A stretch of DNA of 64,000 nt, from positions 124,001 through 188,000 of the forward strand of contig NZ_WVRE01000006.1 of assembly GCF_013111185.1 (NCBI RefSeq), in the 5' to 3' direction. The position numbers and the translations under genes were made by a program. The notes beneath the pieces are model-generated. The model saw nothing but the letters and a program-made list of their open reading frames with translations. It searched no databases and had not been told where the DNA came from. Below, piece by piece: positions 34,374-40,522 of the stretch (the stretch's first letter is position 1; every line of letters begins with the position of its first letter). The DNA is from Ruegeria sp. HKCCD7303. GTDB lineage: Bacteria > Pseudomonadota > Alphaproteobacteria > Rhodobacterales > Rhodobacteraceae.

Positions 34374-34461
34374 TGTGATCACACAAAATAATGTCGTGAT
34401 CACATATTATATTCCTCATTATCAATGTTAGCGTTTTCAAAGGCAAACGGATGTGATCACG
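34374..34461. promoter_or_regulatory. Three GTGATCAC operators upstream of sdhC
   Basis: TGTGATCACA (34374-34383), CGTGATCACA (34395-34404) and TGTGATCACG (34452-34461) lie 114-200 bases before the sdhC start. The first two cores are exactly 21 bp apart, two helical turns. The same pair in the same spacing is found before sucC, indicating shared control of the TCA operons. The regulator is not identified. The rest of the 215-base gap holds the sdh promoter. Confidence 0.75.
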
Positions 34462-34475
34462 AATCTTTTGTCATG

Positions 34476-35138
34476 TCACTTCAGCTCTGCGGTTTGCTGC
34501 GTCACTTCGCGCAGCAGTTTTCTGCGAATTCGTTCCGGATAGTCCGCGAACCCTGCTGCCGAAACGACAAAAGCACCCTCACCCACGATGACATTCTCAA
34601 AGAAATAGGCCGTCAGATCCGGTTCGCTTTCCTCTATGGCCAAGGCATTGACCACAACGCCTCGATCTCGCAAGGCCGCGTGAACTTGCGTCGGCTCGAC
34701 CCCTTCATTGGATACCCCGTCACCTGACAAATCGATCAGATGCCGGGCGCAGTGGGAAACCGGCTCGAATGAATCGAGCGTTGTTTGAAGCGCTTCCCCA
34801 ATCGCGGTTGAAAAATTCCGCCAGATACGCGGATCAGCAGAAACTTGATCCGCAAACCGATCCAAAGCTGCGAAACTGTCGATACGGGTCCAAGGGATCG
34901 TTATCTGCTGACGCGACGACCCCGTCCATTGTACCAGCATCAACTGTGCCTGCCCCTGCACCAAAGCTTCGGATACAATCGGGTCGCGCAGTCCGGTAGC
35001 TAGCCCGTCCATCTGGATCCGATATTCGCTGCTATCGACCGAGCCGGACACATCCACAGCCAAGGCCAAAGCCAGATCACAGGCCAGAGCCGCCGGGGCC
35101 AGGCAGACGCCGGCCAATATCGCGCGCAGAAAGTGCAT
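34476..35138 (-). CDS. DUF1194 secreted von Willebrand factor A-like protein
   Basis: The 220-residue product has a signal peptide ending near PAALACDL and a VWA domain with the MIDAS motif DVSGSVDSSEY, plus LIDLSGDGVSNEG carrying the later MIDAS residues. DUF1194 proteins are exported and of unknown function, probably protein-binding through a metal ion. It lies 54 bases after mch on the same strand and may be read from that transcript. Its stop is only 14 bases from the outermost sdh operator. Confidence 0.9.
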   Translation of the reverse strand: MHFLRAILAGVCLAPAALACDLALALAVDVSGSVDSSEYRIQMDGLATGLRDPIVSEALVQGQAQLMLVQWTGSSRQQITIPWTRIDSFAALDRFADQVSADPRIWRNFSTAIGEALQTTLDSFEPVSHCARHLIDLSGDGVSNEGVEPTQVHAALRDRGVVVNALAIEESEPDLTAYFFENVIVGEGAFVVSAAGFADYPERIRRKLLREVTQQTAELK

Positions 35139-35192
35139 GGTGCAAACCTAGCACGGCTAACACGCAAGTGGTTCACATAACCGTCAGAACTC

Positions 35193-36221
35193 TTATTGCG
35201 GCATAAGCGCCCAATAATCGAGATCCAGAAGAACATCGGGCAAATACCGTCCCTCGTCGTTCTTCAATGCAAACGGAGCGCCCCCTTTGGTTGCCACCAA
35301 TCGCAGCCGAATCGCACCCACGCCTGGTACGCCGGTTTCCGCTTTGTCCAGAACTTCGGACCACGCCTTGATGGTATCTCCTGCAAAACAAGGGTTTGCA
35401 TGTGCGCCGCCGTTCAGGCCAACGATCATCTGCGCATTTGCCAAGCCATTGAACGACAGGGTCCGCGCCATCGAAATAACATGACCTCCATAGATCAGCC
35501 TGCCTTCGGGCCGGAACGTCAGGTCGAAATGCACTTTGGCCGTGTTTTGCCACAGGCGTGTGGCCAGCATGTGCTCTGCCTCTTCCACGGTGACACCGTC
35601 CACATGGTCGATGGTCTCACCGATGTCGTAGTCGCCCCAGCCGTGCGGCTCACCCGCCAAAGCAAAATTGTAGTTCGAGAAATCAAGACCCTCGGGCACG
35701 ATTAGATCCTGCGGATCAAGAACCTTTTTCAACTCGGGAACAACTGTTTCGGGCGCCGGCGCGTCGACATTTGCTTTGCGCACCATAACCCAACGAACAT
35801 ATTCCAGCACAACCTCGTCCAACTGGTTCAGCCCGCGTGTGCGCACCCATACGACGCCAGTTTTTCCGTTGGAGTTCTGCTTGACCCCGATCACCTCGGA
35901 CACAGAGCGCAGGGTATCTCCAGCGTACACAGGTTTCAGCCAGCGGCCCTCGGCGTAGCCAAGATTGGCAACCGCGTTCAACGAAACATCCGGCACGGTT
36001 TTGCCGAAAACCAGATGGAAGGCGACCAGATCATCAATCGGGCTTTCCGGCAAACCACAATCCCGGGCAAATTCGTCCGACGAATACAGCGCATGACGCG
36101 CAGGATAGAGCGCGTGATACAAGCCGCGCTCTCCCTCGGTCACTGTACGCGGTACCGCATGTTGCAACACCTGCCCGACGGAATAATCCTCGAAAAAACG
36201 TCCCGGATTTGTTTTTGCCAT
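35193..36221 (-). CDS. mch: Mesaconyl-C1-CoA hydratase (beta-methylmalyl-CoA dehydratase)
   Basis: Hydrates mesaconyl-C1-CoA to beta-methylmalyl-CoA in the ethylmalonyl-CoA pathway. The 342-residue product is a double hot-dog MaoC-type protein: GRFFEDYSVGQVLQHAVPRT, SPIDDLVAFHLVFGKTVPDV, LKPVYAGDTLRSVSEVIGVK in one half and TFRPEGRLIYGGHVISMART with FAGDTIKAWSEVLDK in the other. It shares one base with the DUF1737 gene (TAATG). It is the last pathway gene of an operon headed by mcl2, matching the mcl2-mch cluster of Rhodobacter. Confidence 0.93.
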   Translation of the reverse strand: MAKTNPGRFFEDYSVGQVLQHAVPRTVTEGERGLYHALYPARHALYSSDEFARDCGLPESPIDDLVAFHLVFGKTVPDVSLNAVANLGYAEGRWLKPVYAGDTLRSVSEVIGVKQNSNGKTGVVWVRTRGLNQLDEVVLEYVRWVMVRKANVDAPAPETVVPELKKVLDPQDLIVPEGLDFSNYNFALAGEPHGWGDYDIGETIDHVDGVTVEEAEHMLATRLWQNTAKVHFDLTFRPEGRLIYGGHVISMARTLSFNGLANAQMIVGLNGGAHANPCFAGDTIKAWSEVLDKAETGVPGVGAIRLRLVATKGGAPFALKNDEGRYLPDVLLDLDYWALMPQ

Positions 36222-36427
36222 TACTGCTGTCCCAGTTTCATTTCAGGGGAATAGTCCGCCTCGACCTCTTTGGTCACGGCCTGCGCACAACGCATAACGC
36301 TGTTTGCTGTGTCAAAGGCATAGGACGGGTCGCCATACAGCTCCCACCCTTTGGCCAGTGCGTCAGACACTTTGTGGCAGAAGGCCGATGTGTCTTCCTC
36401 GGTCAACAAACGATAGAGTTTTGCCAT
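36221..36427 (-). CDS. DUF1737 family small protein
   Basis: The 68-residue product starts MAKLYRLLTEEDTSAFCHKV and has SDALAKGWELYGDPSYAFD, the DUF1737 pattern (KGW-x-LYGxPS). The family is small and of unknown function. It lies between nnrU and mch and overlaps mch by one base, so it is translated with it. Its constant company with mch suggests a pathway-linked role, but that is inference. Confidence 0.85.
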   Translation of the reverse strand: MAKLYRLLTEEDTSAFCHKVSDALAKGWELYGDPSYAFDTANSVMRCAQAVTKEVEADYSPEMKLGQQ

Positions 36428-39090: not shown

Positions 39091-39251
39091 GCGCCGGTTC
39101 CGGTTTTGGCTTGTCTCAAAGGCCCTTTAGCGCAACCACACCGGGCTCTGCAAACGGTATGCGGTTGTATGCCACGTCGCAGAACCCTTGCCTATTGCCG
39201 TTTTAGCGACTAGCACGACCGCGATTTCAAAACCGACCGGAGATATTCCAA

Positions 39252-40214
39252 ATGGCCAGACCCAAGATTGCGCTGATCGGCGCGGGGAACATCGGCGGCA
39301 CGCTTGCGCATCTTGCAGCTGTCAAAGAACTGGGTGACGTAGTCCTGTTTGACATCGCTGACGGGCTGCCGCAGGGCAAGGCGCTCGACATCGCAGAATC
39401 CGGCCCATCCGAAGGCTTTGACGCCTCGATGAAGGGCACAAGCGACTATGCCGATATTGCTGGCGCGGATGTGTGCATCGTGACCGCTGGTGTGGCCCGC
39501 AAGCCAGGCATGAGCCGCGATGACCTGCTGGGCATCAACCTGAAAGTCATGAAGTCGGTCGGTGAAGGCATCGCCGCTCACGCACCCGATGCCTTCGTGA
39601 TCTGCATCACCAACCCGCTGGACGCAATGGTTTGGGCGCTGCGCGAATTCTCGGGCCTGCCGCACAACAAGGTTTGCGGCATGGCAGGCGTATTGGACTC
39701 GGCGCGCTTTGCGCATTTCTTATCGGAAGAATTCAATGTTTCGATGCGCGACGTCACCGCTTTCGTTCTGGGTGGTCACGGCGACACCATGGTGCCTTCG
39801 GTGCGCTATTCGACCGTAGCCGGTATACCACTGCCCGATCTGGTTGAGATGGGTTGGACCACGCAAGAGAAGCTGGACGCCATCGTTCAGCGCACCCGTG
39901 ACGGTGGTGCAGAAATCGTTGGCCTGCTGAAAACAGGTTCCGCTTATTACGCGCCTGCCACTTCGGCAATCGAAATGGCCGAAGCTTATCTGAAAGACCA
40001 AAAACGCGTTCTGCCTTGCGCTGCCTACTGCAGTGGTGAGTTGGGTGTTGACGGTCTGTACGTTGGCGTCCCGACCGTAATCGGTGCAGGTGGCGTAGAA
40101 CGTATCGTCGACATCAAACTGAACGAAGACGAACAAGCCGGTTTCGACAACTCTGTCAACGCCGTTAAGGGCCTGATCGACGCTTGCAAAGGCATCGACA
40201 GCTCGCTGGCTTAA
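39252..40214 (+). CDS. mdh: Malate dehydrogenase (NAD)
   Basis: Oxidises malate to oxaloacetate in the TCA cycle. The 320-residue, LDH-like MDH has [54 protein letters not shown], the substrate-binding [13 protein letters not shown] and the catalytic His in [18 protein letters not shown] precedes the ATG. A strong terminator directly follows, so mdh can be expressed separately from the suc operon. Confidence 0.97.
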
Positions 40215-40236
40215 ACCAGCACAAATTCTCAGGCTA

Positions 40237-40268
40237 AAAGCCGGCCCATTTCTGGGCCGGTTTTCTTT
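40237..40268 (+). terminator. Intrinsic terminator of mdh
   Basis: CCGGCCCA at 40241-40248 pairs with TGGGCCGG at 40253-40260 with a 4-base loop, extended by A-T pairs on the outside. TTTTCTTTT follows. This is a classic plus-strand terminator 22 bases after the mdh stop. Confidence 0.9.
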
Positions 40269-40522
40269 TGCCCAGATCAATCAGGGTCGCGAATGTTGGC
40301 GCAAACGTCGCAAATCCTTTTTTTTGAATGTGATTTCCGGTGCCTGCACTGTATTTTCGAATCAATCGATCACGCGGCAAATTTTGTGATCACACCCTAA
40401 AAAGCCGTGATCACAAATGGCGAAAATCTTCACTAAAATCCTCTTTGCCGTCAAAAAACCCTTTAAACTTGCCCGCTAGACACCCCTATAACGGTTAAAC
40501 GCAGTCAGACGGGACAATTTCG
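40269..40522. promoter_or_regulatory. sucC promoter region with GTGATCAC operators
   Basis: TGTGATCACA (40386-40395) and CGTGATCACA (40407-40416) have cores exactly 21 bp apart, as before sdhC. A degenerate third copy, TCGATCAC at 40366-40373, lies another 21 bp upstream, in phase. They are 107-157 bases before the sucC start. A TATAAC near 40490 may be the -10 element. The remainder shows no gene. Confidence 0.7.

Follow-up and report, generated by a model that had tools for sequence, protein, structure and literature searches.

In the stretch of Ruegeria sp. HKCCD7303 DNA analysed here (64,000 nucleotides (nt), contig NZ_WVRE01000006.1, positions 124,001 to 188,000; henceforth the window), two tricarboxylic acid (TCA) cycle operons, those beginning with sdhC and sucC, appear to share an operator code: before each lies a pair of the palindrome GTGATCAC, the two cores 21 base pairs (bp), or two helical turns, apart, and this fixed arrangement recurs across the family Rhodobacteraceae far above chance. 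The regulon is most likely that of the known activator AkgR, and judging from sequence we consider it very probable that the pairs are AkgR operators, from which two dimers activate from upstream, with a single site at the regulator's own gene serving for autorepression. An earlier note, made from the window alone, had described pairs exactly 21 bp apart, about 110 bases from the start codons; all of these palindromes are present, and the gene-nearest core lies 114 nt from the start codon of sdhC (ATG at 34260) and 108 nt from that of sucC (ATG at 40523). The operators and the genes that they precede are as follows:

34374 to 34383, no strand: promoter-proximal sdh operator, TGTGATCACA, read from the sequence
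34395 to 34404, no strand: distal sdh operator, CGTGATCACA on the plus strand, core 21 bp from the proximal one
40385 to 40394, no strand: distal suc operator, TGTGATCACA, read from the sequence
40406 to 40415, no strand: promoter-proximal suc operator, CGTGATCACA, supported by conservation of the pair
33874 to 34260, minus strand: sdhC, first gene of the sdh operon, start re-set to MADVNRGNRP
40523 to 41716, plus strand: sucC, first gene of the suc operon, an open reading frame with its start mapped

The exact arrangement GTGATCAC-N13-GTGATCAC was found twice in the whole 4.62-Mb genome, upstream of sdhC (34374-34404) and of sucC (40385-40415). Comparison of its SucC and Mdh proteins places this genome closest to Ruegeria. 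Single copies of GTGATCAC are not rare, with 133 in the genome, so that the pair and not the octamer is the signal; by arithmetic from those 133 copies, about 0.004 exact 21-bp pairs would be expected. A genome-wide pair search allowing up to 3 mismatches returned 60 places, of which two were exact, none had 1 mismatch and six had 2. Within the window, GTGATCAC occurs 7 times against 0.93 expected, a count reached by none of 100 shuffles, and TGTGATCACA with at most one mismatch occurs 7 times against 2.25 expected (reached by 1 of 100); the two GTGATCAC copies that belong to neither operon (13471, 14837) fall inside long open frames. A chance origin of the pairs was rejected on the shuffles of the window, this genome-wide search and the family-wide search that follows.

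A close pair (two octamers with any gap of 0-30) was present in 267 of 295 family genomes, mostly at two places each, whereas the same pattern written backwards as a control matched in one genome only. Counted by hand, 65 of the 75 pairs listed are spaced by 21 bp and 5 by 20 bp, the remaining 5 having other spacings. Across 80 named loci surrounding mdh, octamer pairs within 100 bp of each other were spaced by 21 bp (116) or 20 bp (20), with rarer spacings of 57 (5), 78 (5), 88 (1) and 98 (1) bp arising from further upstream copies; within 56 bp, 21 and 20 bp were the only spacings seen. We located sucC in 72 and sdhC in 67 of these loci. With the window added, the exact pair precedes sucC in 73/73 rows (68 at 21 bp, 5 at 20 bp) and ends 96-114 nt upstream of the start codon, and it precedes sdhC in 64/68 rows (49 at 21 bp, 15 at 20 bp), ending 113-167 nt upstream; the sdhC exceptions are L085 and L109, without an exact copy, and L068 and L091, with one. 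Five Sulfitobacter loci in which the operon is reversed (L040, L057, L068, L070, L093) were mapped separately, with the suc pair in 5/5 and the sdh pair in 4/5, and are absent from the alignment, -35, tract, leader-motif and tree rows below. Alignment and A/T-tract counts use non-redundant subsets, and the named and coded genome sets may share species. Outside the family the pair was found in 2 of 380 other Alphaproteobacteria, once each, against 5/5 family members of the same draw. The two checks that the earlier note had set for itself, presence of the pairs in relatives and occurrence above the chance rate, thus both came out in favour of its TCA-cycle regulon with a defined operator code, and the spacing held across the family fits the one-face, two-turn geometry that it had suggested.

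Across 52 non-redundant suc regions, the distal core is preceded by a T-rich flank (T at 75%, 79% and 96%), the proximal core is trailed by an A-rich flank (A at 98%, 87% and 90%) and the spacer centre is A/T-rich, so that the 35-bp element is roughly symmetric overall. One genome carries three consecutive GTGATCAC copies in 21-bp steps (G135:C8:374318-374367). Two of the named loci, L049 (titled Nocardioides marinus) and L065 (titled Maritalea mobilis), hold a Rhodobacteraceae-type mdh-suc locus and fall within that family in the SucC tree; these titles look wrong, or the assemblies mixed.

The distance from operator to promoter is also constrained, most visibly on the sdh side. Predicted core promoter elements in the window are:

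34312 to 34317, minus strand: predicted sdh -35 box GTGACA, starting 58 nt from the proximal core, from a box scan of sdh leaders
34290 to 34295, minus strand: predicted sdh -10 box TAAAAC, 16-nt spacer, read from the sequence
40462 to 40492, plus strand: tentative suc core promoter, a weak -35 near 40462-40467 and a -10 TATAAC at 40487-40492 with an over-long spacer, read from the sequence

A GTGAC- or ATGAC-type box lies in range in 54 of 60 pair-bearing sdh rows. The distance from the proximal operator to its start is 58-61 nt in 46 rows, 48-49 nt in 5 rows (each titled Paracoccus), 70-71 nt in 2 rows and 81 nt in one; a TA follows the box at a 16-nt spacer in 44/54 rows and at 18 in 1, with none at 15-18 in 9. 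An operator/-35 pattern search, able to detect distances of 43-73 nt only, matched 270 of 394 family genomes. Among the 150 matches listed, the distance was 58-62 (123), 48-49 (8) or 70-72 (11), and otherwise 45 (2), 56 (1), 67 (4) or 73 (1); by our reading, about ten of these matches come second in a genome that already has one and probably belong to suc, and every match at 67 or 73 is of this sort, as are some at 49 and 71-72. A consensus scan run without GTGAC as a seed recovered mostly the same sdh distance clusters with few strays. On the suc side, 27 of 68 rows had their best-scoring -35 in that scan at 47-49 nt, and the other rows were scattered. These distributions suggest that the sdh operator-to-(-35) distance changes mostly by whole helical turns (49/60/71).

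Between operators and promoter, both leaders carry short A/T tracts in approximate helical register:

34331 to 34366, minus strand: sdh ladder of four A/T tracts (34362-34366, 34352-34355, 34341-34345, 34331-34336) in steps of about 10 bp, identified by eye and by periodicity in relatives
40423 to 40458, plus strand: suc ladder of A/T tracts (40423-40427, 40435-40439, 40444-40446, 40453-40458), identified by eye, in nearly the sdh register

By eye, the tracts of both ladders sit at about 9-13, 20-25, 30-34 and 39-44 nt from the operator. In relatives, AAA/TTT/AAT/ATT triplets peak near +10, +21, +30 and +41 nt in the 51 suc rows and the 53 sdh rows alike. As controls we took stretches preceding the ATG and others upstream of the pair: the 10-bp amplitude was 6.1 for suc and 4.5 for sdh against 1.1-1.3 in the controls, and periodicity at 10-10.5 bp reached about 3.5-5 times the control amplitude. 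Relative to the predicted promoters, the tracts would fall near -43, -53, -63 and -73 (suc) and near -54, -65, -75 and -85 (sdh). The C-terminal domains of the RNA polymerase alpha subunits can dock in such a register upstream of a promoter, and we infer that the tracts may allow them to do so here.

The earlier note had not recognised the regulator, and here the literature goes further than it did. RSP_0981 of Rhodobacter sphaeroides, which we take to be AkgR, has a regulon reportedly described by Imam et al. in 2015. In the portion of PMC6365646 consulted, GTGATCAC is identified among AkgR binding sites and AkgR is termed an activator; in the corresponding portion of PMC4344238, control of sucCD, sdh and 2-oxoglutarate dehydrogenase in R. 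sphaeroides is predicted for the GntR regulator RSP_0981. A literature search with the operator string returned no paper evidently about an AkgR-type regulator, as far as titles and the beginnings of abstracts tell. The genome has 16 FCD-domain matches, and one of these proteins, P0001 (G000:C21:153225-153869, away from the window and on a different contig from the operator pairs), is the candidate AkgR ortholog. Its GntR (PF00392) and FCD (PF07729) domains both score above the Pfam cut-off, the winged helix and FCD expected of the FadR subgroup of GntR proteins, and sequence comparison with solved structures gave ten matches, the best being 4p9f (McbR). A TGTGATCACA ends 7 bp upstream of its predicted start. 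Exact GTGATCAC copies stand upstream of 20 of 30 P0001 orthologs. One is at -53; the other 19 precede the extrapolated first codon by 13-24 bp, and each of the 19 has a TTGAC box whose start lies 18-20 nt ahead of the core (exactly 18 nt for 15 of them). An operator so placed would reach the -10 region, which suggests autorepression. In G010, G090, G093 and G265 we also noticed, though without a systematic count, that a pair and a P0001 ortholog are 8-11 kb apart; the closeness in R. sphaeroides of gene numbers RSP_0981 and RSP_0974-6 (sdh), as given in the consulted portion of PMC4344238, is a weak link to P0001. P0001 is the likely AkgR ortholog.

Context was inspected at 18 places in the genome where TGTGATCACR occurs outside both pairs and the third sdh site discussed below: open frames enclose 14 of them, two fall at gene ends (L146, L153), and the other two precede genes, by 7 bp for the regulator gene (L161) and by 133 bp for another (L162). 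The last, a single TGTGATCACA at G000:C22:4370-4379 (L162:1501-1510), is a possible further single-site target, and the genome may hold others.

The best-supported mechanism is activation from one face of the DNA by two dimers. Two AkgR dimers would bind 21 bp apart, perhaps cooperatively, with centres near -100 and -121 relative to the presumed sdh start and, for suc, near -88 and -109 (family-wide estimates from predicted -35 boxes), and would activate transcription of both operons from there. The roughly four A/T tracts in helical register between operators and -35 would most likely bend the DNA, dock alpha C-terminal domains, or both, such that activator and polymerase face each other, whilst the regulator would repress its own gene through the single GTGATCAC that overlies the promoter there. 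A stronger formulation, to which we give about an even chance, is that Rhodobacteraceae TCA promoters follow a rigid grammar, in which a two-dimer GntR platform is joined to some four one-turn A/T tracts that dock alpha C-terminal domains or wrap DNA round the polymerase, with only whole turns gained or lost.

Two additional copies proposed earlier bear on this layout:

34452 to 34461, no strand: third GTGATCAC (TGTGATCACG), 57 bp past the distal sdh copy, auxiliary at most, position not conserved
40366 to 40373, no strand: degenerate TCGATCAC, 20 bp before the distal suc core, not conserved

The third sdh copy is present, as had been reported. An exact further-upstream copy within 300 nt of the start codon occurs in 12/63 rows (window included), at 57-136 bp, and in 0/5 of the separately mapped Sulfitobacter rows; with its position not fixed among rows, it was rejected as part of the code. 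The degenerate suc copy, claimed to lie in phase at 21 bp, is in fact 20 bp away, and the 52 suc regions have no conservation at this position, for which reason we discarded it as a third phased operator.

An alternative that we consider unlikely is that AkgR acts as a repressor of sdh and suc, either from the pair by itself or through a loop with the third upstream site. Many FCD/GntR proteins are repressors, 12 of 63 sdh rows have a further upstream copy, and the regulator's own gene has its single site where a repressor would sit. Against repression at the operons, that upstream site is absent from most rows and variable in distance, the -35-like box in 54 named sdh rows begins 48-81 nt after the pair, without overlap, and AkgR is described as an activator in the portion of PMC6365646 consulted.

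Pair and regulator tend to co-occur. A P0001 ortholog (at least 59% identity, full length) is encoded in 29 of 31 pair-bearing family genomes tested, the exceptions being G019 and G114, and in 49/49 named pair-bearing genomes (69-94% identity). Among the 28 pair-less family genomes, 19 have no ortholog, five have a full-length one at 69-79% identity (G040, G147, G155, G166, G291) and four have a weaker, partial or broken copy (G122, G281, G109, G157). G040 and G291, pair-less by exact search, retain a one-mismatch 21-bp pair upstream of sucC; in G157, where the regulator copy has four in-frame stops, a pair-like remnant with 4 mismatches keeps the same spacing and place. Of 17 regulator-less genomes, 16 show at least 5 mismatches in their best match upstream of sucC; the other, G017, has a match with 3 mismatches and a 20-bp spacing, though it lies 130 nt from the start, outside the usual place; no sucC ortholog was found in G021, G122, G147, G155, G166 or G172. 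The SucC tree requires 6 changes for the pair and 8 for the regulator, and the 72 tree rows, with the ambiguous G109, G157 and G281 coded as lacking the regulator, divide into 50 with both, 20 with neither, 2 with the pair only and 0 with the regulator only. Orthologs above 50% identity were found in 5/5 family members and 0/380 other Alphaproteobacteria, three of which have a 39-44% relative (at most 7 candidates per genome were scored). Seven pair-less genomes (G004, G008, G083, G194, G195, G207, G209) encode a second SucC-like protein at 50-53% identity, perhaps a malate-CoA ligase subunit, at a guess.

Another GntR paralog, such as the one about 40% identical at C19:150890 in the same genome, might bind the pair in place of P0001. 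Paralogs of roughly 30-43% identity are common in family genomes, both G019 and G114 have one beside their pair, and a Pseudomonas protein 32% identical to AkgR has the same motif proposed for it in the consulted portion of PMC6365646. The pair-less G004, G054, G101 and G195, however, keep such a paralog and lack a P0001 ortholog, and the motif stands at the own gene of P0001 orthologs in 20 of 30 cases, leaving this explanation quite improbable. A third possibility, that pair and tracts serve a DNA-bending nucleoid protein or amount to a curved-DNA element and that no specific regulator is involved, draws on the strongly phased tracts and is very improbable, given an exact 8-bp palindrome in nearly all sampled members, its absence in most cases where the specific GntR gene is missing, and the motif's report for AkgR in the same portion of PMC6365646.

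Several results nevertheless weigh against activation by phased AkgR dimers. No P0001 ortholog was found in G019 or G114 despite their perfect pairs; ortholog-like proteins persist in the pair-less G122 (52%), G281 (48%) and G109 (64% over part of the length); and G109 and G281 have no pair at sucC, the best match there having at least 6 mismatches. The tree affords just 5 independent contrasts, all in the expected direction (median p 0.0625), and recoding the three ambiguous genomes as having the regulator lowers this to a mean of 3.3 of 5 contrasts. Ten of the 30 P0001 orthologs lack an exact own-gene GTGATCAC, 6/60 sdh rows have no -35-like box in range, and the suc core promoter is poorly defined in the consensus scan of 68 rows. 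The control stretches are also periodic at 9.5-11 bp, more weakly (z 6-11; z 7-9 at 10 bp); since they too exceed shuffles, the rows do not count as independent and some of the periodicity signal is general, and the tracts may represent curvature common to promoters and nothing more.

If activation by phased AkgR dimers holds, a repeat noticed in one genome is now linked to an already known activator of the TCA cycle and yields a rule, testable across the family, for where AkgR must sit relative to polymerase. The natural whole-turn insertions and deletions across genera approximate a ready-made helical-phasing experiment, and joint absence of site and regulator marks where TCA control was probably rewired.

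The closest known system is the AkgR regulon of R. sphaeroides itself, which likewise has the GTGATCAC motif (PMC6365646, portion consulted) and a regulator of the GntR family that is predicted to target sdh, sucCD and 2-oxoglutarate dehydrogenase (PMC4344238, portion consulted). In the window, exact GTGATCAC pairs stand at both promoters, before sdhC and sucC, and a 985-aa frame further down the suc gene row was read by eye, with no family search, as 2-oxoglutarate dehydrogenase. A second GntR-type protein, PS417_07240 of the Pseudomonas simiae deoxyribose cluster, is the one 32% identical to AkgR; it differs in its pathway and in its lone site, which spans -47 to -40 relative to the start codon, and no pair is described for it in the portion of PMC6365646 consulted. 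AkgR as an activator is thus already known, and what the sequence adds is an apparently rigid layout of two-turn operators, phased tracts and mostly whole-turn steps; the tandem 21-bp layout, the phased A/T tracts, the whole-turn -35 steps and the single own-gene site were worked out in the present analysis, with no claim that they are unpublished. Another related system is that of CceR, the LacI-family regulator of central carbon genes, which is presumably RSP_1663. RSP_1663 is likewise predicted to act on sdh, and also on mdh, and differs in its motif, [A/G/T]GTT-N6-8-AAC[A/C/T], and its protein family (PMC4344238, portion consulted). TTAGCG/CGCTAA half-palindromes occur downstream of the proximal operator in 19/60 sdh leaders (e.g. 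L050, L051, L058, L072) and 6/68 suc leaders, and those in sdh leaders are compatible with a CceR-like LacI site. Between pair and -35, sdh leaders of several genera carry a GCGCCAAAAAACCGC-like element (e.g. L037, L044, L076, L096), which by a strict pattern is found in 5/60 sdh and 0/68 suc leaders. Activation from far upstream by CRP-type proteins offers a further parallel: there, polymerase is contacted only from the right DNA face and whole-turn shifts are tolerated. A CRP/FNR site consists of half-sites separated by a spacer, whereas GTGATCAC is one contiguous palindrome, as the earlier note had held; unlike CRP-type sites, the TCA pairs combine contiguous 8-bp palindromes, a candidate GntR protein and two sites at a fixed 21 bp.

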